Below are positions 24,270-43,636 of a stretch of 64,000 nt of DNA, one piece after another (the first letter of the stretch is position 1; each line of letters starts with the position of its first letter). The notes below the pieces were generated by a model. The model was not told where the DNA came from and made no database searches. It worked only from the letters and a program-made list of their open reading frames with translations. This DNA is from Thermomonospora catenispora. GTDB taxonomy: Bacteria > Actinomycetota > Actinomycetes > Streptosporangiales > Streptosporangiaceae. Made by a program: the position numbers and the translations under genes. The stretch covers positions 1 to 64,000 of the forward strand of contig NZ_RRYT01000003.1 in assembly GCF_006363815.1 (NCBI RefSeq), read 5' to 3'.

Positions 24270-25490
24270 GTGAGTGACAAGGGTGCGGCGCCCATGGGTC
24301 GTGCGACGGTCGAGCACGCCCTGGCGACGCTCCGTGACGAACGTGATCGCATCTCCGCCTCCCTGCTGGACCTGGAGCAGCACCACGGCCATCGGCTGCT
24401 CAAGGGCGCCCGCCTGAGCGGGGGCACTCGGGACCGATGGGAGCGGGCCCAGGCCGCGCTGACCTTCCTGTGGCGGCTGTTCGACGCCTACCAGGGCGTC
24501 CTGGAGGAGGCGACCGAGCTGCAGCGGCGGCGGCCGAGCGAGGCGACCCTCCGAAGGCTGACGGAGCTGCTGACCGGCCCGTCCGTGGAGGTCCCGCGGG
24601 ACGAGATCACCCTCCGGCGGCGGACCCTGCTCGGGCCGGACCGCGAGAGGTGCACCCTCCAGGAGGCCAAGGAGCAGATGACCGAGGCCTATCGGGAGGT
24701 CACCGAGCTGGTCTCGGCCGTGGACGCGGCCTGGGAGGCGCTGCTGGAGCCGCTGGAGGCCGCCGAGCGGGAGTGGCGCGAGGCGGTGCGGCTGGCGCAG
24801 TCGCTGGGCGAGGGACGCGACGCCGAACTGGACCGGCTCGGCCGGGAGCTGGCCGCGACCGGGCAGCTGGTCCGGACCGATCCGCTGGCCCTGGTCGAGA
24901 ACGGGCGGGCCGACGCGGAGCGGATCGAGTCGCTGCGCGCCGGCCTCGCGGCGGTGCGCGAGGGCCTCGCCGAGGCCGCCCGGCTGCGCGCCGAGTACGA
25001 CGAGCGGGTCGCGGCGCTGGAGGCCGGGCTGAGCACCCTGGCCCAGGCCGTCGCCGCCGCCCGGAGCGCCTACCGGACCGTCCAGGTCAAGATCGCCGAC
25101 CCCGGCGTGCCGGAGCCCGCCGACCCCGGCCCCGTGCTGCGGGAGCGGCTGGACGCGCTGCCCGCGCTGCGCGCCGCCGGGCGCTGGTCCGACCTGGCCG
25201 CCCGGATGGCCGAGCTGGAGACGAACATCGCCGGGGCGGTGGAGCAGGCCGAACGCGCCCGCGCCCTCAGCACCGGCCTGTTGGAACGCCGCGACGAGCT
25301 GCGCGGCAGGTTGGACGCCTATCGGGTGAAGGCCGCGCGCCTGGGGTTCGCCGAGCACGACGAGCTGGCCCGGCTGCACGAGCAGGCCCGTGCGCTGCTG
25401 TGGACGGCCCCCTGCGATCTGCGGCGGGCCACCGTCGCGCTCACCCGGTATCAGCGAGCGCTCAGATCCTTGGAGACCGGGACGGACTGA
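24270..25490 (+). CDS. Coiled-coil protein, first gene of the PknG/GlnX operon
   Basis: The protein has 406 residues, with GTG 24270 preceded by a GGAGCGACG stretch. It is almost entirely helical with heptad-like Leu/Ala patterning (HALATLRDERDRISASLLDLEQ, LRRLTELL, ELDRLGRELAATGQLV, LRAGLAAVREGLAEAARLRAEYDERVAALEAGL). There is no signal or membrane segment. Its stop overlaps the pknG ATG by one base. I infer a scaffold or substrate for the kinase. No enzymatic motif is seen. Confidence 0.8.
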   Translation: MSDKGAAPMGRATVEHALATLRDERDRISASLLDLEQHHGHRLLKGARLSGGTRDRWERAQAALTFLWRLFDAYQGVLEEATELQRRRPSEATLRRLTELLTGPSVEVPRDEITLRRRTLLGPDRERCTLQEAKEQMTEAYREVTELVSAVDAAWEALLEPLEAAEREWREAVRLAQSLGEGRDAELDRLGRELAATGQLVRTDPLALVENGRADAERIESLRAGLAAVREGLAEAARLRAEYDERVAALEAGLSTLAQAVAAARSAYRTVQVKIADPGVPEPADPGPVLRERLDALPALRAAGRWSDLAARMAELETNIAGAVEQAERARALSTGLLERRDELRGRLDAYRVKAARLGFAEHDELARLHEQARALLWTAPCDLRRATVALTRYQRALRSLETGTD

Positions 25491-27859
25491 TGGAGAAGTG
25501 CACCAGACCCGGGTGCCCGGGTTACATCGAGGACGGCTTCTGCAACGTCGACGGACTCGCCCCGGAGCCCGCCCCCGCCGTCCCCCCGCCCCGGAGCGCC
25601 TCCGGCGCCACTCCGGGCATCGCCGCCGCACAGCCAGGCCAGGTGCGGTCCGCCTCGCCCACCCGGCCCTCCTCCGCGCCGTCCTCCGGCTCGCGAGGGA
25701 GCGGCTCGGGAGGGACGGGCTCGGGCCGCACCGGGTCGGGCCGGACGGGCTCGGGCCGCAGCACCCGCACCGGACGCACCGGCTCCACCGGGGCGTCGCG
25801 GCGCGGGATGCTCGGCGCGGGCCTGGTGGAGGTGCCGCCCGTTCCGTACCGGGACCCGGCCACCGCGGTCCTGAGCAAGCCGGAGGTCCCCGAGAACCGC
25901 CGGTTCTGCAGCGTCGACGGCGAGCCGGTGGGGCGCAGCCGGGACGGCCGGCCCGGGCGGACCGAGGGGTTCTGCCCCTCGTGCGGGCACCCCTACTCGT
26001 TCACCCCCAAGCTCAAGCCCGGCGACCTGGTCGGCGGCCAGTACGAGGTGCTGGGCTGCCTGGCGCACGGCGGGATGGGCTGGATCTACCTGGCCCGGGA
26101 CAAGAACGTCAGCGACAGCTGGCGGGTGCTCAAGGGCCTGCTGAACTCCGGTGACGCCGACGCGATGCAGGCCGCCGCGGCCGAGCGGGCCTACCTGGCG
26201 CAGGTCGACCACCCCAACATCGTCAAGATCTACAACTTCGTGCACCACCCGGACCCGCAGACCGGGGAGCTCGTCGGCTACATCGTCATGGAGTACGTCG
26301 GCGGGCAGTCGCTCAAGGACATCCTGTCCCGGCTGCGCAAGGAGCAGGGCGAGGAGGCCTCGCTGCCGCTGCCCCAGGTGATCGCCTACGGCCTGGAGGT
26401 GCTGCGGGCGATGGGCTACCTGCACAGCCGGGGGCTGCTGTACTGCGACTTCAAGCCCGACAACGCCATCCAGTCCGAGGAGCAGCTCAAGCTGATCGAC
26501 CTGGGCGGGGTGCGGCGGATCGACGACGAGGACAGCCCGATCTTCGGCACCACCGGGTACCAGGCGCCGGAGATCTCCACCGAGGGCCCGTCGATCAGCT
26601 CCGACCTGTACACGGTGGCGCGCACGCTGGCGGTGCTGAGCTTCCCGTTCCGCGGCTACACCGGCCGGTACGCCACCAGCCTGCCGCCGCGCGAGGAGGT
26701 GCCGCTGTTCCAGCGGTACGAGTCGTTCTACCGGCTCCTGCTGCGGGCGACCGATCCGGACCCCGCCGCCCGGTTCCAGGACGCGGCGGAGATGGCCGAG
26801 CAGCTCACCGGGGTGCTGCGGGAGGTGCTGGCCATCGACGACGGGCGGCCGCGGCCGGGGACCTCGACGCTGTTCGGGCCCGAGCAGCGGGCCGCGGGCA
26901 CGGAGATCGCCGCCGGGGGCGATCAGCGGGCCGTGCTGCCCTCGATGGACGCCCGGTCGGCGGCGGCCGCGCTCCCGGCGCCGCAGGTCGACGGGAACGA
27001 CCCGGCGGCGGGCTACCTGGCGGGCCTGACCGCGCGGGACCCGGCGGAGCTGGAGGCGGCGCTGAAGGCGGCGCCGGTGCAGTCGCCGGAGGTCGGGCTG
27101 ATGCTGGTCCGGGTCCGCATCGAGCGGGGGCGGTTCGCCGAGGCCGCCGAGCTGCTGGAGGAGCTGGACCGCACGACGCTGCCCGGCGACTGGCGGCTGG
27201 ACTGGTACGAGGGGCTGGCCGCGCTGGCCGCCGGGGACTGGCGGCGGGCGGTGGAGCTCTTCGACGGCATGTACGGCCTGCTGCCGGGGGAGCTGCCGCC
27301 GAAGCTGGCGCTGGCGTTCGCCCACGAGTGCGGCGGGGACCTTCCGGCGGCCGCCTACTTCTACGACCTGGTGGCGCGCACCGACCCCGGCTATGTGAGC
27401 GCGGCGTTCGGGGCGGCGCGGGTGCGGCTGGCGATGGGGGACCGCGCCGGGGCGGTGCGGATGCTGGACTCGGTGCCGCGGATCTCCGCCCACCACACGG
27501 CGGCGCAGCTGGCCGCGGTGTCGGCGGCGGTGCGCGGCTGGAGACCCGAGGAGCTGCCGCATCCGGCCCTGGTGGACGCCGGGCGGCGGCTGGCGGACCT
27601 GCAGGCGGACCGCAAGCTGGACGCCGAACGGGCCGGCCTGTTCACCGCGGAGGTCCTGGAGGCCGCGCTGCAGTGGACGCTGCACCACCGGCCGCCGCCG
27701 GACGTCCCCGAGGTGCTGGGCGTCCCCCTTCAGGAGAACGCGCTGCGCCGCAGGCTGGAGGCCGCCTACCGCGGCCTGGCCCGCCTCGCCGACCACGCCG
27801 AGGAACGGCACCGGCTGGTGAACCGGGCCAACGCCGTACGACCGCGGACGCTGGTGTGA
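25490..27859 (+). CDS. pknG: Serine/threonine protein kinase G
   Basis: The protein has 789 residues with the PknG layout: an N-terminal Cys motif (CTRPGCPGYIEDGFC), a Gly/Ser/Arg-rich linker, a rubredoxin-like region (about 138-172), the kinase domain (about 185-440) and a long TPR-like helical half (about 500-789). The kinase shows LAHGGMGWIYLARD, Lys215, YCDFKPDN with Asp320 and Asn325, and DLGG in place of DFG. YCD replaces HRD, a PknG family trait. The first rubredoxin knuckle reads CSVDGE with only one Cys, while the second (CPSC) is intact. Mycobacterial PknG phosphorylates GarA-type FHA proteins to control 2-oxoglutarate/glutamate flux. Confidence 0.93.
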   Translation: MEKCTRPGCPGYIEDGFCNVDGLAPEPAPAVPPPRSASGATPGIAAAQPGQVRSASPTRPSSAPSSGSRGSGSGGTGSGRTGSGRTGSGRSTRTGRTGSTGASRRGMLGAGLVEVPPVPYRDPATAVLSKPEVPENRRFCSVDGEPVGRSRDGRPGRTEGFCPSCGHPYSFTPKLKPGDLVGGQYEVLGCLAHGGMGWIYLARDKNVSDSWRVLKGLLNSGDADAMQAAAAERAYLAQVDHPNIVKIYNFVHHPDPQTGELVGYIVMEYVGGQSLKDILSRLRKEQGEEASLPLPQVIAYGLEVLRAMGYLHSRGLLYCDFKPDNAIQSEEQLKLIDLGGVRRIDDEDSPIFGTTGYQAPEISTEGPSISSDLYTVARTLAVLSFPFRGYTGRYATSLPPREEVPLFQRYESFYRLLLRATDPDPAARFQDAAEMAEQLTGVLREVLAIDDGRPRPGTSTLFGPEQRAAGTEIAAGGDQRAVLPSMDARSAAAALPAPQVDGNDPAAGYLAGLTARDPAELEAALKAAPVQSPEVGLMLVRVRIERGRFAEAAELLEELDRTTLPGDWRLDWYEGLAALAAGDWRRAVELFDGMYGLLPGELPPKLALAFAHECGGDLPAAAYFYDLVARTDPGYVSAAFGAARVRLAMGDRAGAVRMLDSVPRISAHHTAAQLAAVSAAVRGWRPEELPHPALVDAGRRLADLQADRKLDAERAGLFTAEVLEAALQWTLHHRPPPDVPEVLGVPLQENALRRRLEAAYRGLARLADHAEERHRLVNRANAVRPRTLV

Positions 27860-27860
27860 C

Positions 27861-28886
27861 ATGCCGGAGAACGAGATGAAGGCCGCCGGCTGCCCCGAGT
27901 GCGGGTACCCCGTCCTGCCGCACCACGGGTTCTGCGAGGCCTGCGGCGTCCCCCTGCGCGGGGCGGCCTCGCCCGCCCCGAAGGCGCGGGCGCGCCCCGC
28001 CGAGTGCGTCGAGTGCGGGAGCACCGAGATCAGCGACGGGTTCTGCGGGCAGTGCGGGCTGCGGCAGCCCGACGGGCGCGAGCACGTGGAGGTGACGACG
28101 CCGACGGCGGCCGGGGTCAGCGACCGGGGCCGCCGGCACAGCCGCAACGAGGACGCGATGGCGGTCGTCGAGACCGGCGGGCGGGTGATCGCGGTGGTGT
28201 GCGACGGGGTGTCCTCGGCCCCTCGTCCCGAGGAGGCCTCGCAGATCGCCGCCGAGACCGGGGCGGCGATGCTGACCGCCCAGCTGGACGCGGGCGCCGA
28301 CACCGAGGCGGCGACCCGGGCGGCGGTGCTGCGGGCGGGCAAGGCGGTCGCCGCGCTGGCCGCCTCCGAGCACGAGGCCCCCGCCTGCACGTACGTGTCG
28401 GCCGTGGTGGACGTCGGCGCCGTCACCGTGGGCTGGGTGGGGGACAGCCGGGCCTACTGGATCTCCGACGGCACCGGCGCCCGCCCGTCCACCGTGCTGA
28501 CCGCGGACGACTCGTGGGCGGCGCAGATGGTGGAGCTGGGGGTGCTCACGCCCGCCCAGGCCCACGCCGACGTCCGCGCGCACACCCTCACCTCCTGGCT
28601 CGGCGCCGACGCCGGTGAGCTGCGGCCCCGGGTGGAGAGGTTCGAGCCGGGCGGGCCGGGGGCGGTGGTGCTGTGCACCGACGGGCTGTGGAACTACCTG
28701 CCGGAGGCCGCCGAGCTGGCCGAGGCGGTGCACCGGGCCCGGGCCGGCGACCCCGCCCGCCCGCCGCTGGAGATCGCCGGCGAGCTGGTGCGCACGGCGC
28801 TGGACGCGGGCGGCCACGACAACGTCACGGTGGTGTTGATCCCTTTCCCGCCCCCTGAGGCGGGCTCCCCCTACCCGGCCGGATGA
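27861..28886 (+). CDS. PP2C-type protein phosphatase with two N-terminal zinc ribbons
   Basis: The protein has 341 residues. Zinc ribbons lie at 11-28 (C11, C14, C25, C28) and 49-65 (C49, C52, C62, C65). The PP2C domain follows with all acidic motifs: RGRRHSRNEDA, VVCDGVSSA, GWVGDSRAYW, CTDGLWNYL and GGHDNVTVV. It starts one base after the pknG stop. It is the natural antagonist of the kinase next door, or resets the FHA protein downstream. It is soluble, with no transmembrane helix. Confidence 0.92.
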   Translation: MPENEMKAAGCPECGYPVLPHHGFCEACGVPLRGAASPAPKARARPAECVECGSTEISDGFCGQCGLRQPDGREHVEVTTPTAAGVSDRGRRHSRNEDAMAVVETGGRVIAVVCDGVSSAPRPEEASQIAAETGAAMLTAQLDAGADTEAATRAAVLRAGKAVAALAASEHEAPACTYVSAVVDVGAVTVGWVGDSRAYWISDGTGARPSTVLTADDSWAAQMVELGVLTPAQAHADVRAHTLTSWLGADAGELRPRVERFEPGGPGAVVLCTDGLWNYLPEAAELAEAVHRARAGDPARPPLEIAGELVRTALDAGGHDNVTVVLIPFPPPEAGSPYPAG

Positions 28887-28901
28887 GGAGCGAAGCGAGC
28901 G

Positions 28902-30191
28902 ATGCCCGAGTTCACCATCAAGGTCGACCAGAACCGCTACCTGCCCGTGGGCGGTCGCGAGGTGCACGCCATCGTGACCGTGGAGGCCACCGGCGCGGGT
29001 GCGGCGGCCGCCGCGACCTCGGCCGCCGAGGTGATCATCATCGACACCTCCGGGTCGATGTCGTTCGGCGACAAGATGGCCGAGGCCAAGCGGGCGGCCA
29101 AGGCGGCGGTGGACGTGCTGCGCGACGGGGTGCGCTTCGCGGTGGTGGCGGGGTTCAACCTGGCCCGCCCGGTCTACCCGGCCGACGAGACGCTGGCGGT
29201 GGCCTCGCCGCAGACCCGTGAGGAGGCCAAGCGGGCGATCGGGCGGCTGGACGCCTCCGGCGGCACCGCGATCGGCTCCTGGCTGCGGATGGCGCACAAG
29301 CTGATGTCGCGGCACGGCGCGGGCGTGCGGCACGCCATCTTGCTCACCGACGGCAAGAACCAGCACGAGACCCCGGCCGAGCTGGACGCGGCGCTGGCCG
29401 AGGTGAACGGGGGCTTCGTGTGCGACTGCCGGGGCGTGGGCACCGACTGGGAGGTCGCCGAGCTGCGCAAGATCGCCTCGGCGATGCTGGGCAGCGTGGA
29501 CATCGTCGCCGACCCGCGCGACCTGGAGGCCGACTTCCGCGCGATGGCGGAGAAGGCGATGGGCAAGGCGGTCGCCGACGTGGCGCTGCGGGTGTGGACG
29601 CCCCAGAACGGGACGGTGAAGTTCCTCAAGCAGGTCGCGCCCTCCCTGGAGGACCTGACCGGCCGGCGGGTGGAGTCGGCCCCGCAGTCCGGCGACTATC
29701 CGACCGGCACGTGGGGCGATGAGATCCGCGACTACCACCTGTGCGTGCAGGTCCCGCCCAGCGACGTGGGCCGGCAGATGCGGGCGGCCTGGGTGAAGCT
29801 GGTCGTCCCCGACGGGGCGGGCGGCGAGCAGGTGCTGGCGTCGGGCAACGTGCTCGCCGAGTGGACCGACGACGAGGCCAAGTCCACCCAGATCAACCCG
29901 CGGGTGGCGGACTACACCGGGCAGGCGGAGCTGGCCGCGGCCATTCAGGAGGGGTTGGCGGCCCGCCGGGAGGGCGACGTGGACACCGCGACCGCTCGGC
30001 TGGGACGGGCGGTGGTGCTGGCCCGGCAGGCCGGCAACGAGCAGATCGGACGGCTGTTGGAGCGGGTCGTCGACGTGATCGACCCGGTGACCGGGACGGT
30101 CCGGCTCAAGAAGAACGTCGACAAGGTCGACGAGATGTCCCTCGACACCCGGTCGACGAAGACGGTGCGCACCCGCAAGGACGGAGGATGA
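28902..30191 (+). CDS. von Willebrand factor A domain protein
   Basis: The protein has 429 residues. The VWA domain covers about 20-215 with a complete MIDAS start DTSGSMS (Asp48, Ser50, Ser52) and SGGTAIGSWLRMA for the threonine ligand. A beta-rich middle (about 225-330) and a helical end (LAAAIQEGLAARREGDVDTATARLG, TPR-like) follow. GAGGAGCGAAGC precedes ATG 28902. It is probably a metal-dependent protein-protein adaptor in the phosphorylation pathway. Confidence 0.9.
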   Translation: MPEFTIKVDQNRYLPVGGREVHAIVTVEATGAGAAAAATSAAEVIIIDTSGSMSFGDKMAEAKRAAKAAVDVLRDGVRFAVVAGFNLARPVYPADETLAVASPQTREEAKRAIGRLDASGGTAIGSWLRMAHKLMSRHGAGVRHAILLTDGKNQHETPAELDAALAEVNGGFVCDCRGVGTDWEVAELRKIASAMLGSVDIVADPRDLEADFRAMAEKAMGKAVADVALRVWTPQNGTVKFLKQVAPSLEDLTGRRVESAPQSGDYPTGTWGDEIRDYHLCVQVPPSDVGRQMRAAWVKLVVPDGAGGEQVLASGNVLAEWTDDEAKSTQINPRVADYTGQAELAAAIQEGLAARREGDVDTATARLGRAVVLARQAGNEQIGRLLERVVDVIDPVTGTVRLKKNVDKVDEMSLDTRSTKTVRTRKDGG

Positions 30192-30194
30192 GCC

Positions 30195-30929
30195 ATGCCG
30201 ACCTGTCCGAACGGCCACTCCTCCGCCACGGACGACTACTGCGACGTCTGCGGGGAGCTGATGACGGGGGCGGCCCCGGCGCCGCCGCCCTCCTCCGCCG
30301 AGTCGGCGCCGGCCGGCGGGCCGGCGGAGGAGGGCGGGGCCTGCCCCTCCTGCGGCACGCCCCGGGTCGGGCGGTTCTGCGAGACCTGCGGCTATGACTT
30401 CGCGACCGGCCGGGCGCCGGAGCCCCGGCCGTTCCTCCAGCCCGCCGGGACGGACGGGCGGCTCGGGCCGCAGGCCTCCACGTCGGCGCCGATCTACCAG
30501 TGGACGGTGCAGGGGGCCGCGCCCGGCGGCTGGTCGGCGGTGGTGTCGGCCGACCGGGAGTACTTCGAGAAGGTGCTGGCCGAGCTGGGACCGGACGGGG
30601 AGAGGCTGAAGTTCCCGCCGTTCGCGCCGCCGCGCCGTTACCTGCTGGTCGGGCAGCAGGTGCGGATCGGGCGGCGCAGCGTCTCCCGGGGCTTCGTCCC
30701 CGAGATCGACCTGAGCACCCCGCCGGAGGACCCGGCGGTGTCGCACATCCACGCCGTGCTGATGGCCCGGCCGGACGGCACCTGGGTGCTGGTCGACCCC
30801 GGCTCCACCAACGGCACGACCGTCAACGACTCCACCGAGCCGATCCCGTTCAACGTGGAGGTGCCGGTGCACGACGGCGATCGCATCCATGTCGGCGCCT
30901 GGACCACCATCACCCTGCGGAAGGAGTGA
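30195..30929 (+). CDS. FHA-domain protein with double zinc ribbon (GarA-like role)
   Basis: The protein has 244 residues. Zinc-binding clusters are C4/C16/C19 with His8 and C50/C53/C62/C65. A Pro/Ala linker leads to an FHA domain at about 150-240 with RIGRRSVSRG, SHIHAVL and GSTNGTTVN, the phosphothreonine-binding loops. In mycobacteria the PknG target GarA is also a zinc-ribbon-like/FHA protein, so this gene may be the pathway's phospho-switch. It starts three bases after the VWA stop. Confidence 0.92.
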   Translation: MPTCPNGHSSATDDYCDVCGELMTGAAPAPPPSSAESAPAGGPAEEGGACPSCGTPRVGRFCETCGYDFATGRAPEPRPFLQPAGTDGRLGPQASTSAPIYQWTVQGAAPGGWSAVVSADREYFEKVLAELGPDGERLKFPPFAPPRRYLLVGQQVRIGRRSVSRGFVPEIDLSTPPEDPAVSHIHAVLMARPDGTWVLVDPGSTNGTTVNDSTEPIPFNVEVPVHDGDRIHVGAWTTITLRKE

Positions 30930-30935
30930 CCCGCC

Positions 30936-32426
30936 GTGACGGTGACCGCTCAGTCCCCGGCGGGGCCGACGCCCGCCGTTCCCGATCCGACCCCTCCCGC
31001 CGGGCCTCCGCGGCCCGGCGCCGTCCGGCGGCTGGCCCGGCGGATCCACCTGCGCACCGTGCCGGCCCGGATCCGGGCGATGACGCTGGTCGCGGTGGTG
31101 GCGGTGGGCGTGCTGTTCGGCGCGGCGTCCTGGGCGATCGGCAACGCCCGCGACGGCCTGGCGACCATCGGGCACGACGCCGGCCCGCAGGTGGTGGCGA
31201 CCGGCGACCTGTTCTTCGCGTTGAACGACATGGACGCCCAGGTCGCCAACGTGCTGCTGTTGGGCCGCGACCGCGATCTGGGGCGCGGCCGGGAGGCCTC
31301 GCTCCGGCTGTACGCGCAGCGCCGCAGCGAGGCCTCCCGGGCGCTGCTGCAGGCCGCCCAGCTCGCCGGGGACGACCGCACCGAGCAGCGCACCGTTCAG
31401 GCGGTGCTGGACGGCCTGGGGGAGTACGAGCGGCTGGCCGCCCGGGCGATCCAGCTCGACGAGCAGCGGCCGCACCCGGCCGGGCCGCCGTCCGATGAGG
31501 TGCTGGCGCTGTATCGCGAGGCCACCGACCTGATGAAGCTGAAGCTGCTGCCGCAGGCCTACAACCTGACGCTGGAGAGCGGGTCGATCGTCCGCAAGAC
31601 CTATGAGCGGGAGCACTCCTCGCTGGTGGCCGGGCGGCTGTGGGTGCTGGGCTCGGGGCTGGCCGTGGTGGCGGCGCTGGCGGCCGTCCAGGTGTATCTG
31701 GCGCGGCGGTTCCGGCGGCTGGTGAACCCGGCGCTGGCGCTCGCCACGCTCGGGGCGGTGGCGCTGACGGCCGCGGTCGCGGTGCTGGTGGGGACGCAGG
31801 CCGGGCTGCTGCGCAAGGCCAAGGAGGAGGGGTTCGACTCGGTGCTGGCGCTGTCGCGGGCGCGGGCGATCGGCAACAGCGCCTACGCCGACGAGGGCCG
31901 CTATCTGCTGGACCCGGTGCGCCGCGACACCTACGAGCAGGTGTACTTCGACAAGTCCCAGTCGATCCTGTACCTGGACGCCGAGCGGACCAAGAGCCTG
32001 GCCGACTACTACGTCAACCTGGACGCCGCGGTGAACGCCTACCGGTCCCAGCCGCGGGCGACGTTCCTGGGGTTCTTCGGCGATCAGGCGCGGGCGGCGC
32101 GGCCCGGCGGCGCGGAGGCCGCCGCCGTGACGCGGGTGCTGGAGCGGTACCGGGAGTTCCAGCGCAAGGACCGCTCCGTGCGCGAGATGGTGGCCGGCGG
32201 CCGGCTGGGGGAGGCGCTGAGGCTGCATCTGGACGGTCGGGAGTTCTCCCGGTACGACGCCGCGCTGGTGGAGTTGGCCCGCATGCACCGCGCCACCTTC
32301 ACCGGCGCCATCCGCCAGGGCGACCGCGGGCTGCGCGGCTGGGACGTCGCGCTGCCCGTCGCGTCCGCCGCCCTGGTCGTCTTGATCCTGCTGGGGGTCC
32401 GGCCGCGTCTGGCCGAGTACCGCTGA
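30936..32426 (+). CDS. glnX: GlnX-like membrane sensor
   Basis: The protein has 496 residues, with GTG 30936 after AAGGAG. Four membrane helices are visible: about 45-68, 227-250, 263-288 and 467-490. Two large extracytoplasmic helical domains lie between 1-2 and 3-4. The layout and the NARDGLATIGHDAGPQVVATGDLFFALNDMDAQVAN region resemble mycobacterial GlnX, which relays amino-acid binding by GlnH to cytosolic PknG. No kinase or HAMP domain is seen. The glnX name rests on architecture and neighbours. Confidence 0.82.
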   Translation: MTVTAQSPAGPTPAVPDPTPPAGPPRPGAVRRLARRIHLRTVPARIRAMTLVAVVAVGVLFGAASWAIGNARDGLATIGHDAGPQVVATGDLFFALNDMDAQVANVLLLGRDRDLGRGREASLRLYAQRRSEASRALLQAAQLAGDDRTEQRTVQAVLDGLGEYERLAARAIQLDEQRPHPAGPPSDEVLALYREATDLMKLKLLPQAYNLTLESGSIVRKTYEREHSSLVAGRLWVLGSGLAVVAALAAVQVYLARRFRRLVNPALALATLGAVALTAAVAVLVGTQAGLLRKAKEEGFDSVLALSRARAIGNSAYADEGRYLLDPVRRDTYEQVYFDKSQSILYLDAERTKSLADYYVNLDAAVNAYRSQPRATFLGFFGDQARAARPGGAEAAAVTRVLERYREFQRKDRSVREMVAGGRLGEALRLHLDGREFSRYDAALVELARMHRATFTGAIRQGDRGLRGWDVALPVASAALVVLILLGVRPRLAEYR

Positions 32427-32448
32427 GCCGCAGCATCGGAGGTGGAAG

Positions 32449-33276
32449 ATGCGCATTCCCCGTACCGCCGCGCTGGCGTCGGCCGCCGCCGTGGCCGTGG
32501 GCGTGCTGACCGGCTGCAGCGCCGGCGGGGGCGAGTCGATCCTGGACCGGGAGACCTTGACGATCGGGGTGAAGGCCGACCAGCCGGGGCTGGGGCTGCG
32601 GCGGTCGGACGGCGAGTTCGTCGGGTTCGACGTGGACGTGGCCCGCTATGTGGCGGGCAAGCTGGGCTTCTCCGACCAGGAGATCCGCTTCACCGAGACC
32701 CCCTCGAACGTGCGGGAGCAGGTGCTGGAGCAGCGGCGGGTGGACATGGTGGTGGCGTCGTACTCGATCACCGCCAGCCGCAAGACCAAGGTCACCTTCG
32801 CGGGGCCGTACTACGTGGCGCATCAGGACACGCTGGTCCGCGCCGGCGACTCGGCCGTGCGGAACGTGCGGGACCTGGCGAACCGCCGCCTGTGCAAGGT
32901 CACCGGGTCCAACTCCTGGCGGCGGGTGACCGAGGAGCGGGGGGTGCCGGCCCGGCTGGTGGAGACCACCACCTACAGCGACTGCGTGGACCGGCTGATC
33001 AGGGGCGAGGTGGACGCGGTGAGCACCGACGACCTGATCCTGGCCGGGTTCGCGGCCCAGCGCGGGAACGCCGTCAAGATCATCAACGCGCCGATCTCCG
33101 ACGAGAAGTACGGGATCGGGCTGCACAAGGGGGACCTGGACGGCTGCGAGGCGATCAACCGGGCGCTCACCGAGATGTACCAGGACGGGACGGCGGCGCG
33201 GCTGCTGGACAAGTGGTTCGGGCGGACCACGCTGCGGACGACCGACAGCGTGCCGCAGTTCGAGGGCTGCTCCTGA
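32449..33276 (+). CDS. glnH: GlnH-like amino-acid-binding lipoprotein
   Basis: The protein has 275 residues. A lipoprotein signal ends in VLTGC (Cys23). The mature part is a periplasmic-binding-protein family 3 domain: TIGVKADQPGLGLR, FVGFDVDVARYVAGKLG, VDMVVASYSITASRKTKVTFAGPYY, and DAVSTDDLILAGF. No ABC permease or ATPase genes are adjacent, which supports a sensing rather than transport role, as for mycobacterial GlnH with GlnX. It closes the operon. Confidence 0.9.
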   Translation: MRIPRTAALASAAAVAVGVLTGCSAGGGESILDRETLTIGVKADQPGLGLRRSDGEFVGFDVDVARYVAGKLGFSDQEIRFTETPSNVREQVLEQRRVDMVVASYSITASRKTKVTFAGPYYVAHQDTLVRAGDSAVRNVRDLANRRLCKVTGSNSWRRVTEERGVPARLVETTTYSDCVDRLIRGEVDAVSTDDLILAGFAAQRGNAVKIINAPISDEKYGIGLHKGDLDGCEAINRALTEMYQDGTAARLLDKWFGRTTLRTTDSVPQFEGCS

Positions 33277-33633
33277 ACCGGCGACCAAAATTACCAACCG
33301 GTCAGTAGAAATGAAGATCCTTCGGAATTGGCGTGCGCCGGCGGTCGCGTCGGGCCGGAAATGAGAGATGAAACACCCTGAATGCGCTTGCACTGGACAT
33401 ACCGTCCAGTAGTGCGGAGGATTTCCCCGGCCCTCCCGCCCGGCGGCGATCGCGCCGGGACCGGCCGCCCGAGCCGGCCCGGGCGACGAGCGAGGCCGGC
33501 CCCTGTCGGCACCATACGTGCTGGTAGGGACGTTTTCCGTTACCCGAGGGCCAGCCGGTCGTGACGGCGGTGCCGATGCGGGCGCCGTTCCGGCGGGGCG
33601 TTACAGTGGCCGTTGGGGAATTCGGGAGGTCGG
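33277..33633. other. Intergenic region (357 bp) with one palindrome
   Basis: There is no gene. It contains ACTGGAC-ATACC-GTCCAGT at 33392-33410, a TetR-like operator in search of an adjacent regulator, and otherwise presumably the promoter of the acyltransferase gene. Confidence 0.5.
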
Positions 33634-34314
33634 GTGTTCTATACGTTCCTGGCGCGCGTGGTGGCTCCGATCCTTCGGCTGCTTTTCCGGCCGCAGGTGG
33701 AGGGGTTGGAGAATGTGCCGGCCCACGGGCCGCTGATCATCGCGAGCAACCATCTGTCGTTCATCGACAGCTTCATCATCCCGCTGGTCATCCCGCGGCC
33801 GGTGACCTACATCGCCAAGGCCGAGTACTTCGAGCAGCCCGGCCTCAAGGGCCGCTTCATCCGCTGGTTCCTCACCACCCTGGGCCACATGCCCATCCGC
33901 CGCGGCGCCCGGCGCGCCGCCATGGGCGCCCTGGAGCAGGCCGTCGAGGTCCTGCGGAACTCCGGCGCGTTCGCCATCTACCCCGAGGGCACCCGCTCGC
34001 GCGACGGCCGCCTCTACCGCGGCCGCACCGGCACCGGCTGGCTGGTCCTGGCCACCGGCGCCCGCGTCCTGCCCATCGGCCTGCAGAACACCCAGACCGT
34101 CCAGCCCGTGGGCGCCGCCCTGCCCCGCATCGTCTGGCCCGGCCGCCCCCGCCCCATCGTGCGCATCGGCCCGGTGATGGACTTCTCCCACTACCGGGAC
34201 CTGCCTCCGGCCAAGGCCCGCCGCATCATCACCGACGAGATCATCGAGACCATCCAGAAGCTCTCCGGGCAGGACTACGCCGGCGTCTACAACGAGACCG
34301 CCGATCTCTCCTGA
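33634..34314 (+). CDS. 1-acyl-glycerol-3-phosphate acyltransferase (PlsC family)
   Basis: The protein has 226 residues, with GTG 33634 close behind GGGAGG. Motifs: NHLSFID with His40 and Asp45 (HX4D), a GHMPIRRG substrate-binding block at 84-91, and FAIYPEGTRSRDG with Glu118. It belongs to the membrane-associated acyltransferases that make phosphatidic acid. A hydrophobic N-terminal stretch (FLARVVAPILRLLF) should dock it to the membrane. It is monocistronic. Confidence 0.93.
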   Translation: MFYTFLARVVAPILRLLFRPQVEGLENVPAHGPLIIASNHLSFIDSFIIPLVIPRPVTYIAKAEYFEQPGLKGRFIRWFLTTLGHMPIRRGARRAAMGALEQAVEVLRNSGAFAIYPEGTRSRDGRLYRGRTGTGWLVLATGARVLPIGLQNTQTVQPVGAALPRIVWPGRPRPIVRIGPVMDFSHYRDLPPAKARRIITDEIIETIQKLSGQDYAGVYNETADLS

Positions 34315-34385
34315 CTCTCGCCCGACTCAGGACGCCCCCGTCGAAATCCCCTCCCCGCGCGCGGGGTGCGAGTAGGGTCGCGAGC

Positions 34386-35105
34386 ATGGTCTTGTCACGT
34401 AGCGTCCATGGTGTCTTGCCCATTGTGATGGGAAGTGTCCTGCTCGCCACGAGTTGCGGCGGCGGCGGCGACGGAAAGAACGCCCAGGCCCGGGCCGCGC
34501 GGCAGACGGCGCCGCCCGGCAGATACACCGCGGCGCAGCTCCGCGAGGCGCTGCCGACCGAGCTGGTGGGGTATCGGCGGGTCGGAGAGCCGGAGTCCGG
34601 GGAGTACGGGTCGCTGCGGGGCATCCAGAACTTCAACCAGCTCCGGAACGAGATCACCTACGACAAGCCCCAGTGCCGGGAGATGACCGGGGCGGCCACC
34701 GCCTCCGACACCGCGCTGCGGACGGCGCCGGCCGCGGTGGTGCAGTTCGTCAAGGGCTCGGACCAGTCGGTGTCGACCACCCTGATGGCCGTGCCCGACG
34801 AGGTGGCCGAACGGCACGTCCGGGTCCGGACCCCGGAGGGGTGCAAGCGGTTCCGCACCAGGATCGGCCGGCGCTGGTCCGAGCACCGGGTCGTGGAGGC
34901 CGGCGCCGGCAATGTGGGGACGGCCTCCCGGATCCTGGGCGTCTCCACCGTCAGCGACAACGCCGCCGTCAACACCTGGTACGCGGTCCTGCGCGGCCGC
35001 GGCTACCTGGCCACCATCGCCGTCTACGGCCCCAAGGTCACCCGGGCCGAGGCCGAGCAGCTGGCCCGCCAGACCTACGACCACGCCGAACGCGTCCTCC
35101 CGTGA
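34386..35105 (+). CDS. Lipoprotein of unknown function
   Basis: The protein has 239 residues. The signal peptide ends in LLATSCGGGG (Cys about 24), predicting a lipid anchor, followed by a short Gly/Ala linker. The mature domain is alpha/beta with LREALPTELVGYRRVG, a Cys (KPQCREM) and a second Cys (PEGCKRF), possibly a disulfide. The final half has LGVSTVSDNAAVNTWYAVLRGRGYLATIAVYG. It recalls actinomycete sensor-domain/PknH-type extracellular domains, but I do not assign it. ATG 34386. Confidence 0.75.
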   Translation: MVLSRSVHGVLPIVMGSVLLATSCGGGGDGKNAQARAARQTAPPGRYTAAQLREALPTELVGYRRVGEPESGEYGSLRGIQNFNQLRNEITYDKPQCREMTGAATASDTALRTAPAAVVQFVKGSDQSVSTTLMAVPDEVAERHVRVRTPEGCKRFRTRIGRRWSEHRVVEAGAGNVGTASRILGVSTVSDNAAVNTWYAVLRGRGYLATIAVYGPKVTRAEAEQLARQTYDHAERVLP

Positions 35106-35195
35106 CGGGGCGTCCGGACCCCGCCCCCGGGCGGCCCCGGGCGCCGGCGGCGGGCCGGGGCGGACGCGGCGCAGGCGGGGCGCGGGCGCGGCACA

Positions 35196-35879
35196 ATGGC
35201 ACGCATGACCGTGCCCCGGGTCGCCGTCACCGTTGACCTCGTCGTGCTGACCGTGCGCGAGCAGCGACTGTGCGCGCTGGTGTGGCGACGGGACCGGCCG
35301 CCGTACGCCGGCTGCTGGTCGTTGCCCGGGGGGTTCATCCAGCTGGACGAGGACCTTCCGGTGGCCGCCTCCCGGCTGATGGCCGAGCGCGCGGGCCTGC
35401 GGGACGTGCGGATCCATCTGGAGCAGCTCGCCACCTACGGCTACCCGGACCGCGATCCGCGCCAGCGGGTGGTCAGCGTCGCCTACCTGGGGCTGGCGCC
35501 CGACCTGCCCGCCTCCAGCCGGGCGCAGGTGCTGTGGCGGGCCGTGGACGACCTGGTCGAGCGCGAGGAGGCGGCGTTCGACCATCGGCGGATCCTGCGG
35601 GACGGCATCGAGCGGGCCCGGGCCAAGCTGGAGTACACCTCGCTGGCGGCGGCGTTCTGCCCGCCGGAGTTCACGGTGGCGGAGCTGCGCCGGGTGTACG
35701 AGATCGTGTGGGGGACCTCGCTGGACCCCCGGAACTTCCACCGCAAGGTCACCGGGGCGGACCGTTTCCTGATCCCCACCGGCCGCACCACCACCCGCGA
35801 CGGCGGCCGGCCCGCCCGGCTGTACCGGCGCGGAGACGCCGAGCAGCTGCGTCCGCCGATGCTGCGTCCCCGCACCTGA
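35196..35879 (+). CDS. NUDIX-domain protein with winged-helix C-terminus (NrtR-like regulator)
   Basis: The protein has 227 residues. The N-terminal NUDIX fold (about 8-140) has a degenerate catalytic box: G46 and E52 remain, but the REUxEE core reads RLMAER, so two of three metal-binding glutamates are lost. The C-terminal part (about 150-227: [28 protein letters not shown]) is a winged helix typical of NrtR/ADP-ribose-sensing repressors. The NUDIX part is therefore probably a sensor, not an enzyme. No NAD gene is adjacent, so the targets are unknown. Confidence 0.8.
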
Positions 35880-35949
35880 GCGGGGTTTCGTAGGCTTGGG
35901 GCACTTTCACCTGTCGTCCCCTCACCCGTCATCCCCCTGGAGGACAACG

Positions 35950-37023
35950 GTGTCCGTGCCACGCTTCCGTTCCGTGCTCGACCGGTTCACCGCCTACAAG
36001 CCCGGCAAGACCGCGGTGTCGCCGGACGGGCGGTCGTTCAAGCTGTCGTCCAACGAGTCGCCGTTCGAGCCGCTGCCGTCGGTGCAGGAGGCGATCGCCG
36101 ACGCGGCCCGGCGGATCAATCGGTACCCCGACAACAACGCCACCGCGCTGATCGAGGCGATCTCGGCGCGGTTCGGCGTGCCCGCCGACCATGTCGCGGT
36201 GGGCTGCGGATCGGTCGGGGTCACCCAGATGCTGCTGGAGGCGGTGAGCGAACCCGGTGCGCAGGTGCTGTACGCCTGGCGGTCGTTCGAGGCGTACCCG
36301 GTGCTGACGGCGCTGGCCGGCGCGGAGTCGGTGCAGGTCCCGCTGCGCGAGGAGACCCACGACCTGGACGCGATGGCCGAGGCGATCACCGAGCGGACCC
36401 GGCTGATCTTCGTCTGCAACCCCAACAACCCGACCGGCACCGCGGTGCGCCGCGCCGAGCTGGAGCGCTTCCTGGACCGGGTGCCCGAGGACTGCCTGGT
36501 GGTGCTGGACGAGGCCTACCGCGAGTACATCCGCGACCGGGAGGTGCCCGACGGCCTCACCCTGTACGGCGACCGCCCCAACCTGGCGGTGCTGCGGACC
36601 TTCTCCAAGGCCTACGGGCTGGCGGGCCTGCGCGTCGGCTTCCTGGTGGCGCACCCGGTGGTGGCCGAGGCGATCCGCAAGACGATGCTGCCGTTCAGCG
36701 TGAACTCCCTGGCCCAGGCCGCCGCCGTGGCCTCCCTGCGCGCCGAGGACGAGCTGCTGGAGCGGGTCGAGTCCACCGTCAAGGAGCGCGAGCGCGTCGC
36801 CGAGGCGCTGCGCGCCCAGGGCTGGACCGTCCCGCCCACCGAGGCCAATTTCGTGTGGCTGCGGCTGGGGGAGCGCACGCTGGACTTCGCCGCCGCCTGC
36901 GAGGCCCAGGGCATCAGCGTCCGCCCGTTCCCCGGCGAGGGCGCCCGCGTCTCCATCGGCGCCCCGGAGGAGAACGACGCCTTCCTCGCCGTCGCCGAGG
37001 CCTACCCGCATCGTAACGGCTGA
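35950..37023 (+). CDS. hisC: Histidinol-phosphate/aromatic aminotransferase (HisC/Pat family)
   Basis: The protein has 357 residues, with GTG 35950 after GGAGGACAAC. It is a fold-type I PLP enzyme: [15 protein letters not shown] near the N-terminus, [30 protein letters not shown], and the PLP lysine in [15 protein letters not shown] (about residue 221). The N-terminal spacing and RYPDN resemble the mycobacterial HisC2/Pat aminotransferase, which prefers aromatic 2-oxo acids. No his genes are adjacent, so Pat is at least as likely as HisC. Confidence 0.9.
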
Positions 37024-42150: not shown

Positions 42151-43434
42151 TCAGTGGACCTCGCGGACGATGTCGGCGCCCAGCTGGGAGAGCCGCTCGG
42201 CGACGTGGGCGTGCCCGCGGTCCAGGTAGTACGCCTGGGTGATCACGGTCTCGCCCTCGGCCGCCAGGCCCGCAAGCACCAGGGCGCTGCCGGTGCGCAG
42301 GTCGTGCGCCACCACCTCGGCGCCGCGCAGCGGGGTGGGCCCGAACACCTTGGCCCGGTTGCCGTTCACCTCGATGTTCGCGCCCATCTTGGTCAGCTCG
42401 CCGGCCAGCTTGAACCGGCCGTCGAAGATCCGCTCGTAGATGTAGCTGAGACCGTCGGCCAGGCAGGACACCGCCATGATCGGCGACTGCAGGTCGGTGG
42501 CGAAGCCCGGGTACTCGTCGGTGATCACGTTGATCGGGCGGAGCGGGCGCTCGCGGCGCACCTGCAGCACCGCGCCCACCTGCTGGAACTCCACGCCCAT
42601 CTGCTCCAGCTTGTCGGCCGCCACGCCCAGGTGCTCCAGGTCGGCGCCGACCAGGCTGACCTCGCTGCCGGTGATCGCGGCGGCCATCACGAACACGCCG
42701 GCGTCGATGCGGTCGGGCATCACGGTGTGCTGGACCGCGGTCAGCTCCTCCACGCCCTCGACCGTGATGAAGCCGGTGCCGCCGCCGGAGATCCTCGCCC
42801 CCATCTTCTGCAGCATGTCGATGACGTCGAGGACCTCGGGCTCCAGCGCGCAGTTCTTGATCAGCGTGGTGCCCTTGGCCAGCGCCCCGGCCATCACCAG
42901 GTTCTCGGTGCCGGTGTGCGAGGGGGTGTCGCAGTACAGGGAGGCGCCGCGCAGGTCGCCGGCCTTGATGTGGATGACGCCGTTGTCGACGTGCTCGGTG
43001 ACGGTGGCGCCCATCCGCTTGAACCCGTTGTAGTGGAAGTCCAGATTGCGGCTGCCCAGGTTGCAGCCGCCGACGCCCTCGATGATCGCCTCACCGAGCC
43101 GGTGCAGCAGCGCCGGGACGAACAGGAACGAGCCGCGGAACCGGGAGGCGATCTCGGCCGGGAGCACCGGGCTGGTCAGCTCGGAGGCGTCGATGACGAG
43201 GGTGCGCTCGGCTTCGTGCAGCTCCGCGTGGGCGCCCACGGCCTGGGCCAGTTCCACCGCGCGACGGACGTCTTCGATGATCGGAACGTTCCGTAGCACC
43301 GTGCGGCCTTTGGACGCCATCAGCGAGGCGCCGATCATCGGCAGCACGGCGTTCTTGGCGCCCTGGATGAAGACGGTGCCCTGCAGCTTGTGGCCGCCGC
43401 GCACGCGGTATCGAACCTCGTGGCCCATGGTCAT
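42151..43434 (-). CDS. murA: UDP-N-acetylglucosamine 1-carboxyvinyltransferase
   Basis: The protein has 427 residues and makes UDP-GlcNAc-enolpyruvate, the first committed step of peptidoglycan synthesis. GAKNAVLP (Lys27, Asn28) binds substrate. The active-site loop has GGCNLGSRNLDFH with the reactive Cys124, so fosfomycin sensitivity is expected for this copy. The loop wording differs from the usual GGCAIGARPVDLH, and actinomycetes often have two MurA paralogues. Start ATG 43434 has AAGGAG 11 bases upstream; ATG 43428 is possible. Confidence 0.95.
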   Translation of the reverse strand: MTMGHEVRYRVRGGHKLQGTVFIQGAKNAVLPMIGASLMASKGRTVLRNVPIIEDVRRAVELAQAVGAHAELHEAERTLVIDASELTSPVLPAEIASRFRGSFLFVPALLHRLGEAIIEGVGGCNLGSRNLDFHYNGFKRMGATVTEHVDNGVIHIKAGDLRGASLYCDTPSHTGTENLVMAGALAKGTTLIKNCALEPEVLDVIDMLQKMGARISGGGTGFITVEGVEELTAVQHTVMPDRIDAGVFVMAAAITGSEVSLVGADLEHLGVAADKLEQMGVEFQQVGAVLQVRRERPLRPINVITDEYPGFATDLQSPIMAVSCLADGLSYIYERIFDGRFKLAGELTKMGANIEVNGNRAKVFGPTPLRGAEVVAHDLRTGSALVLAGLAAEGETVITQAYYLDRGHAHVAERLSQLGADIVREVH

Positions 43435-43636
43435 TACGCCTTAGCTCCTTTTCGGATGCGGGTGTTCAAGGTGCCGGCCGCCCGTTCGTCCGCACCGGCG
43501 GGTCACGAGTGCCAGGCACGCCGCCGCCTGCGCTCCCTCAGTAAACCACCGGGCGGATGGTCAGGATGCCCGTTGCGCCCCCTTATGGGGGGCTGCCCCT
43601 GCCTGTTTGGTTAGAGCGGGGAAGGCGCCGGAAGGT

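Follow-up and report, generated by a model that had tools for sequence, protein, structure and literature searches.

The seven-gene module and its distribution

The 64,000-nucleotide stretch of contig NZ_RRYT01000003.1 from Thermomonospora catenispora that was analysed here (the window) carries seven closely packed genes on its forward strand at 24270-33276, in the order CC (a coiled-coil/helical protein), PknG, PP2C, VWA, FHA, GlnX and GlnH. The spacings along the run are -1, 1, 15, 3, 6 and 22 bp. The ATG of PknG overlaps the TGA of CC (the kinase starts at 25490, where CC ends); its open frame begins earlier, and the ATG at 25490 matches both the overlap and the conserved N-terminus. An earlier sequence-only reading had described these seven joined genes, and its content, coordinates and end points were right. 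This module is a real, widespread and co-inherited unit, the parts of which are likely to act together. In mycobacteria and related bacteria, the nutrient-sensing kinase pathway is already known with three genes, and what is new is the seven-gene form with a phosphatase and partner proteins.

The module ends at 24270 and 33276, because the MarR and MFS genes upstream recur beside it in 0/90 loci of the same family and the downstream acyltransferase in 16/90. The kinase was assigned by PknG_rubred (PF16919; 99.1 bits, cut-off 28.5), Pkinase (93.3; 31.7) and PknG_TPR (322.6; 27), and its catalytic motifs VLK, YCDFKP, LIDLG and APE are intact. The acidic motifs of PP2C are likewise kept (CDGV, GDSR, TDGL and DNVT). 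The other calls on the window proteins were VWA plus VWA_3_C, FHA, and SBP_bac_3 for GlnH, while GlnX passed the curated cut-off of NCBIfam NF058618 (286.3 bits, cut-off 250). A scan for sigma-70 promoters and terminators gave no signal above chance.

The PknG_TPR profile was searched in sets of genomes at phylum (396), order (150) and class (296) level. From the matches listed, 120 loci of up to 20 kb each were picked by hand, 90 from the window's family (f1), 30 from other families and none from f4, which is taken as Mycobacteriaceae, judging from its GarA and PknG proteins. Together with the window, these 121 loci were scanned with profiles made from the window genes and their relatives, and presence was called at our own score thresholds (for example, 30 bits for GlnX and 40 for CC). 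All seven genes were found in 63 of the 121 PknG neighbourhoods, and the core order CC-PknG-PP2C-VWA-FHA was scrambled in none of them. Among the 106 canonical loci (PknG profile score of at least 880), GlnX was present in 105, GlnH in 99, FHA in 95, VWA in 91, PP2C in 89 and CC in 83; a seven-gene f3 locus with a split PknG reading frame (L166) lies outside this set. The GlnX-GlnH pair is mobile as a block, being downstream in f1, upstream in f3, f92, f8, f86 and f111, and inverted downstream in f42, a family of another class. Second PknG copies in f92 (L173, L175, L177 and L179) are paralogues whose GlnH-GlnX pair lies downstream in inverted orientation.

The run PknG-PP2C-VWA-FHA is conserved over eight families and two classes, and the module recurs in many actinobacteria of the soil. 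Conservation of gene order, which the sequence-only reading had proposed to look for across Streptosporangiales, holds for the core, and the unit is not a speciality of that taxonomic order. It was also seen in 80 named loci, which were chosen by their VWA protein among the matches listed, so that a rate of VWA absence is not readable from them. All seven genes were carried by 65 of the 80 in one of two orders, with GlnX-GlnH upstream in 40 (Streptomyces and relatives, Kibdelosporangium) and downstream in 25 (Actinomadura, Actinoallomurus, Streptosporangium, Thermocatellispora and Sphaerisporangium). Of the remaining 15, 11 end at a contig boundary, L209, L220 and L223 have no PP2C inside the run (L223 also has no FHA), and L247 from Kutzneria has no GlnH match.

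At the level of whole genomes, VWA occurs in 66 of the 296 class genomes and PknG in 65 of those 66, the sole other genome (G369) having only a fragmentary PknG_TPR match (1.2e-12). FHA occurs in 77 of the 296, of which 71 have PknG. Of 83 VWA places, 66 are no more than 7 kb from PknG, and of 95 FHA places, 63 are; the rest are on other contigs or distant. PknG genomes with neither VWA nor FHA number 26, consisting of 23 of the 24 f4 genomes and three from the window's family (G400, G407 and G417). PP2C and FHA were both present in 88 of the 121 loci, with PP2C only in 3, FHA only in 10 and neither in 20. The scattered spread of the extra genes that had been named beforehand as the finding to set against the module was not observed, as VWA genomes almost always have PknG and the core order is kept.

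Table 1. Positions of the module genes and their features in the window
Feature	Position	Strand	Basis
CC (coiled-coil/helical protein), first gene, 406 aa	24270-25490	+	AlphaFold2 and profile scan over loci
PknG, 789 aa: N-terminal ribbon-like motif, Ser/Thr/Gly/Arg-rich linker, rubredoxin-like domain, kinase, TPR	25490-27859	+	
Kinase N-terminal ribbon motif CTRPGCPGYIEDGFCNVD, fourth ligand place is Asp	25499-25552	+	
PknG_rubred domain, one ligand Cys replaced by Asp (CSVDG...CPSCG)	25805-26014	+	
PknG_TPR domain	26855-27850	+	
PP2C-type Ser/Thr phosphatase, 341 aa	27861-28886	+	PP2C_2 64.8 bits (cut-off 24)
Phosphatase double zinc ribbon	27891-28058	+	DZR 28.6 bits (cut-off 27.3)
VWA protein, 429 aa, MIDAS motif DTSGS, VWA_3_C domain	28902-30191	+	
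VWA C-terminal tail LDTRSTKT, candidate phospho-acceptor or docking motif	30141-30164	+	
FHA protein, 244 aa, two N-terminal zinc ribbons	30195-30929	+	
FHA protein, first zinc ribbon CPNGHSSATDDYCDVC	30204-30251	+	C4, H8, C16, C19 invariant, n=16 sequences
FHA protein, second zinc ribbon	30342-30389	+	C50, C62, C65 invariant, C53 nearly, n=16 sequences
FHA domain with phospho-Thr-binding residues	30660-30896	+	
GlnX, membrane transducer, 496 aa, four membrane helices	30936-32426	+	Simple hydropathy scan (helices)
GlnX C-terminal tail RLAEYR, candidate PknG TPR contact	32406-32423	+	
GlnH, family 3 solute-binding lipoprotein, 275 aa, lipobox LTGC	32449-33276	+	
GlnH Arg89, counterpart of mycobacterial Arg147 (ligand side-chain carboxylate)	32713-32715	+	

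Kinase, partner proteins and sensor

Both the N-terminal ribbon and the rubredoxin of the window kinase have Asp at a usual Cys ligand (CNVDG and CSVDG). PMC8546545 defines the rubredoxin domain by PF16919 or by two CxxCG motifs; the window kinase has PF16919, with one CxxCG intact and the other being CSVDG. In the window's genus, the rubredoxin Asp was found in 5/5 main loci (the window and L071-L074) and the ribbon Asp in 3/3 scored loci plus L071, while other genera have Asp at the second knuckle instead, for example CPHDG. A tally of Cys and Asp in the rubredoxin was not used, being unreliable for PDCG-type motifs. Redox control based on the rubredoxin may therefore differ from the mycobacterial description. 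Of the three N-terminal zinc motifs that had been read from the sequence, those of PP2C and FHA stand and that of the kinase is less certain, owing to Asp in place of Cys. Among 92 PP2C proteins, 75 have two ribbons, 6 have one and 11 have none, but 7 of these 11 are f92 rows in which the upstream sequence was probably misread.

The VWA protein is a full-length relative of PDB 4FX5, a solved von Willebrand factor type A structure with no role named in its listing (profile E 4.7e-178, profile residues 2-423). Its tail, L[DEN][TASVI].S..T, is found in 164/165 canonical VWA proteins and 0/10 divergent copies; the sole canonical exception (L088) has Ile for Leu in an otherwise identical tail. This conservation suggests a docking or phosphorylation site. 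The tail and FHA occurred together in 83 loci, the tail only in 2, FHA only in 1 and neither in 9. No VWA gene separates the PP2C and FHA frames of L102 and L116, which lie at a distance of 4 bp from each other.

In the FHA domain, the set R..S..H..N, which we take to be the phospho-Thr-binding residues, is kept in 95/98 relatives. Neither the module FHA protein nor its 15 aligned relatives have an ETTS-type phosphorylation motif before the domain, and the only invariant Thr residues in these 16 sequences, T208 and T237, lie either inside this domain or where it ends. Profile-profile comparison related the protein to GarA (hhalign 97.3%). A fold search with its model gave human kanadaptin as the top match, then a chain of the C. 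glutamicum 2-oxoglutarate dehydrogenase complex, which by inference is OdhI, and third a chain of the PknB-GarA complex. For CC, no family was found above cut-off. Its AlphaFold2 model is almost wholly helix (mean pLDDT 90.5), and Foldseek matched nothing to it at E 0.001 or better. EzrA-type repeats gave the best alignment with CC (Z 11.5, rmsd 3.6, 164 aligned), a similarity that helical models can exceed simply by sharing an arrangement.

On the sensor side, the tail R[LIVR].[ED][YF] is near the C-terminus in 187/189 GlnX matches of module loci. Of the two misses, L188 has a shifted tail and the L267 frame ends elsewhere; in 15 loci the tail served to choose the GlnX frame, and these are illustrative only. 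According to a proposal in section 7 of PMC6069109, the short ends of GlnX in the cytoplasm are peptides of a type that a TPR recognises. Because of this proposal and the conservation seen here, the tail is suggested as a candidate contact for the TPR of PknG. In GlnH, the mycobacterial ligand residues Arg147, Ser164, Arg169 and Asp250 are kept, Thr162 is Ser and Trp232 is Tyr; the Arg147 equivalent is Arg in 106/106 aligned GlnH proteins. GlnH of the module likely senses Asp or Glu, and PMC6069109 and PMC8546545 describe Asp/Glu sensing and TPR dependence for the pathway.

Four divergent, paralogous copies (L158, L075, L188 and L170; 32-48% mutual identity) have the order CC or CC-like, PknG, VWA, GlnX-like and lipoprotein. 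Their lipoprotein is of the family-1 carbohydrate type (SBP_bac_1; L170 is barely over the cut-off) and their GlnX-like proteins score under the NF058618 cut-off, that of L170 very weakly (16 bits, E 0.005). They have no PP2C or FHA match, and the C-terminus of their VWA is a zinc ribbon. In L090, there is a transporter gene downstream instead. On this comparison, transducer, kinase and VWA seem to form a shared platform whose sensors can be swapped.

Reduced forms and GarA

The kinase N-terminal ribbon was found in 78/79 scored canonical kinases (79 of the 106 canonical loci were scored, the remaining 27 having been missed by the anchor pattern) and in 0/24 f4 kinases, in which only 149-239 residues ahead of the kinase core were readable; the rubredoxin is kept in all 24. 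The sole canonical miss, L187 (f115), has GlnX-GlnH-PknG only. In a PknG tree of 89 sequences, made after thinning same-family rows (L190, labelled f4 there, is f42), L187 groups with the Pseudonocardiaceae Kutzneria (six of the seven genes, without a GlnH match) and Kibdelosporangium (all seven), with support of 0.97 and 0.94. A PknG-GlnX-GlnH locus was also found within the window's family (L141, genome G417). Outgroup copies also carry VWA, and some also CC and the kinase ribbon. The operon of three genes known from the studied species thus looks like a reduced form, probably derived in at least two lineages. For f4, this reduction is argued by parsimony because its position in the tree is unsupported. 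One f4 genome, G764, has three PknG copies (contigs 24, 75 and 144), one of which adjoins VWA, FHA and GlnX; this locus has an unread space of the size of PP2C and is the sole f4 exception of 24.

GarA is encoded elsewhere, with the copy of the window genome on contig 16 (G000, 43012-43437; L289). It has an N-terminal zinc ribbon, and ESTSTIS replaces ETTSVFR. One GarA match at E 1e-18 or better was found in each of 36/36 genomes, including four panel genomes without PknG (G398, G404, G411 and G008). In the panel outside f4, 24 of 30 genomes had a readable GarA locus, and in 22 of the 24 the protein has the ribbon followed by, for example, ESTSTIS or ETTSTIS; L285 (f115) has no ribbon and L297 was not parsed. 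The six f4 GarA proteins have no zinc ribbon. Among the named genomes, the ribbon is present in 4/6 and absent in Kutzneria and Kibdelosporangium, though these have the extra genes. An exact search for ETTSVFR gave matches in 8/36 genomes, of which six are true GarA in f4; the matches in G402 and G417 were read as unrelated frames, so a switch of G417 to a mycobacterial-type GarA was rejected.

The GarA ribbon was also considered as a link to the kinase, and this was rejected as a general rule, since the ribbon is present in three genomes that have no PknG, as well as in G417 with its reduced module, and is absent in Kutzneria and Kibdelosporangium. Across the sequences compared, the GarA ribbon does not track the module. 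Docking of the zinc motifs to one common scaffold, which the sequence-only reading had suggested, stays a conjecture: the ribbons are kept in the module, but GarA has its ribbon in three genomes without PknG and is missing it in two Pseudonocardiaceae with the extra genes.

Proposed working, rival explanations and known systems

The module could be the GlnH-GlnX-PknG pathway of amino-acid sensing in its full form, with a hypothetical write-read-erase working, a reading towards which we lean modestly. Its computed basis is the gene content, conserved order, co-inheritance, conserved tails and binding-site residues; sensing by GlnH, the need for GlnX and the TPR, and GarA/OdhI as target are known from other species. 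The GlnH lipoprotein would bind Asp or Glu outside the cell and act on GlnX, the RLxEYR tail of which would contact the TPR of PknG and switch the kinase. PknG would then autophosphorylate its own Thr-rich linker and phosphorylate GarA and, as we propose, the Ser/Thr tail of VWA. The FHA protein would read these phosphates and keep kinase, VWA and PP2C together, CC and VWA would be the scaffold, and the module's own PP2C would reset the phosphorylation state. Phosphorylation of the VWA tail, reading by FHA, PP2C action on the targets of this kinase and the scaffolding are steps that we infer. A broader proposal seems to us about evenly balanced. In it, PknG would sit at the centre of a general plug-in system, where a soluble kinase is gated by a lipoprotein that binds a solute and by a transducer of the GlnX type. 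In its complete version, this system would write (PknG), read (FHA, on the VWA tail and kinase linker) and erase (PP2C) with exchangeable sensors, and the mycobacterial pathway would be a stripped remnant.

Several observations weigh against the full-pathway reading. All locus counts treat related loci as independent, and the branching of the f4 kinases is unsupported in the PknG tree (0.29-0.36). Judging from L102 and L116, VWA is dispensable in some loci. FHA has no PknG match in 6/77 genomes, and the VWA tail is kept without FHA in L106 and L112 while L173 has FHA without the tail. The window GlnX does not pass the PknG-activating equivalog NF041460 (47.9, cut-off 780), and four other module GlnX proteins are also below this cut-off, the best being that of the f3 locus L161 (195.3). 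The position of GlnH Trp232 is Tyr in 82/82 same-family proteins and variable elsewhere.

Alternatively, the FHA protein could itself be the main substrate and output, as a module-specific counterpart of GarA with targets other than 2-oxoglutarate dehydrogenase, GarA being mostly under other kinases. Known PknG substrates are FHA proteins, the module FHA is related to GarA by profile and its model matches OdhI/GarA-type chains, and GarA, which is present in four genomes without PknG, does not depend on this kinase. However, its linker has no conserved ETTS-like Thr, T208 and T237 being in the domain or at its end, and the conserved extras are ribbons, suggesting a reader or adaptor; we consider this explanation unlikely. 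It is improbable, in our view, that a general actinobacterial zinc-ribbon triad of kinase, PP2C and VWA (TerY-P, GAP1-N2) has been joined to GlnX-GlnH for a role in stress or defence and not in metabolism. Such triads, in which the kinase often has a zinc ribbon, are described in actinobacteria in the available part of PMC7159879, and the VWA of the four divergent copies has a C-terminal zinc ribbon. The module nevertheless has the full PknG architecture and keeps the acidic-ligand Arg of GlnH, and a PADLOC scan of its proteins gave no specific defence-system match. CC, VWA, FHA, GlnX and GlnH had no PADLOC match, PP2C matched only PDC-M21C (36 bits), and the kinase matched 30 models, those listed being kinase models (such as PD-T4-6, mad6 and PglW) that align to the kinase domain.

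It could also be argued that the genes for PP2C, VWA, FHA and CC serve housekeeping signalling and merely share an operon with PknG without acting with it, since VWA, PP2C or FHA are each absent from some loci. This is very improbable, given that VWA is nearly always accompanied by PknG, that the PknG-PP2C-VWA-FHA run is kept so widely and that the kinase ribbon covaries with the module.

The module, read as a full GlnH-GlnX-PknG pathway, is like the GlnX-GlnH-PknG operon of mycobacteria and Corynebacterium glutamicum in its PknG architecture, GlnX family, family-3 lipoprotein with the Arg for the acidic side chain, and GarA encoded elsewhere. It differs in adding CC, PP2C, VWA, the zinc-ribbon FHA and the kinase N-ribbon, in having GlnX-GlnH downstream and Asp at one rubredoxin ligand, and in the GarA ribbon and ESTSTIS compared with ETTSVFR. 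The TerY-P triad, which we take to be defined by a VWA with a zinc ribbon and by PP2C and kinase genes beside it, is matched in that PP2C and kinase are encoded beside VWA, while no zinc ribbon was found in the window VWA. As in the TerY-P and GAP1-N2-linked theme (PMC7159879, in the part available), a kinase with a zinc ribbon, a PP2C and a stand-alone VWA share one operon; unlike it, the kinase is PknG and the unit has FHA, CC and an amino-acid sensor.

Type VI secretion has a threonine-phosphorylation pathway of the kinase PpkA, the phosphatase PppA and Fha1. The working proposed here, with a kinase, an opposing PP2C and an FHA partner, is similar, although no homology is claimed and the kinase and sensor differ. 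PpkA also carries a VWA domain, as stated in the accessible text of PMC1262709. Eight flanking reading frames were scanned, and none of them is a type VI secretion gene.

The three-gene operon is described in PMC6069109, PMC8546545 and PMC9769921. In the accessible portions of these papers, the word phosphatase is absent from the first two and in PMC9769921 occurs in connection with Ppp, with alkaline phosphatase assays and with sensor domains. No description of PP2C, VWA or FHA genes adjoining pknG was found in the portions of open-licence PubMed Central text covered (figures, such as the STRING-based Figure 2B of PMC6069109, could show more). PknG was not found linked with a zinc ribbon in that literature, nor, in the accessible part of the 2005 survey PMC1262709, with von Willebrand proteins and Streptomyces. 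The suggestion that the module is under-described thus seems to hold for the open-licence text covered, as the extra genes beside pknG are not described there.

Two questions are open in this pathway, namely the way in which a soluble kinase comes under the control of a periplasmic binding protein and the means by which the signal is ended; according to PMC9769921, the GlnH-GlnX and GlnX-PknG contacts are still to be shown. The module supplies candidates for both, with the RLxEYR tail of GlnX as kinase contact, PP2C as off switch, and the VWA tail and FHA as phospho-reader pair. The studied species may have lost half of the machinery, and the module suggests that glutamate control in antibiotic-producing actinobacteria runs with extra parts.

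Outside the module, genes for an acyltransferase, a NUDIX/NrtR-type regulator and an aminotransferase follow downstream at 33613-37023. On the minus strand, a 1604-aa open frame runs antisense to the module at 27642-32456 and is taken as a probable by-product of high G+C content.

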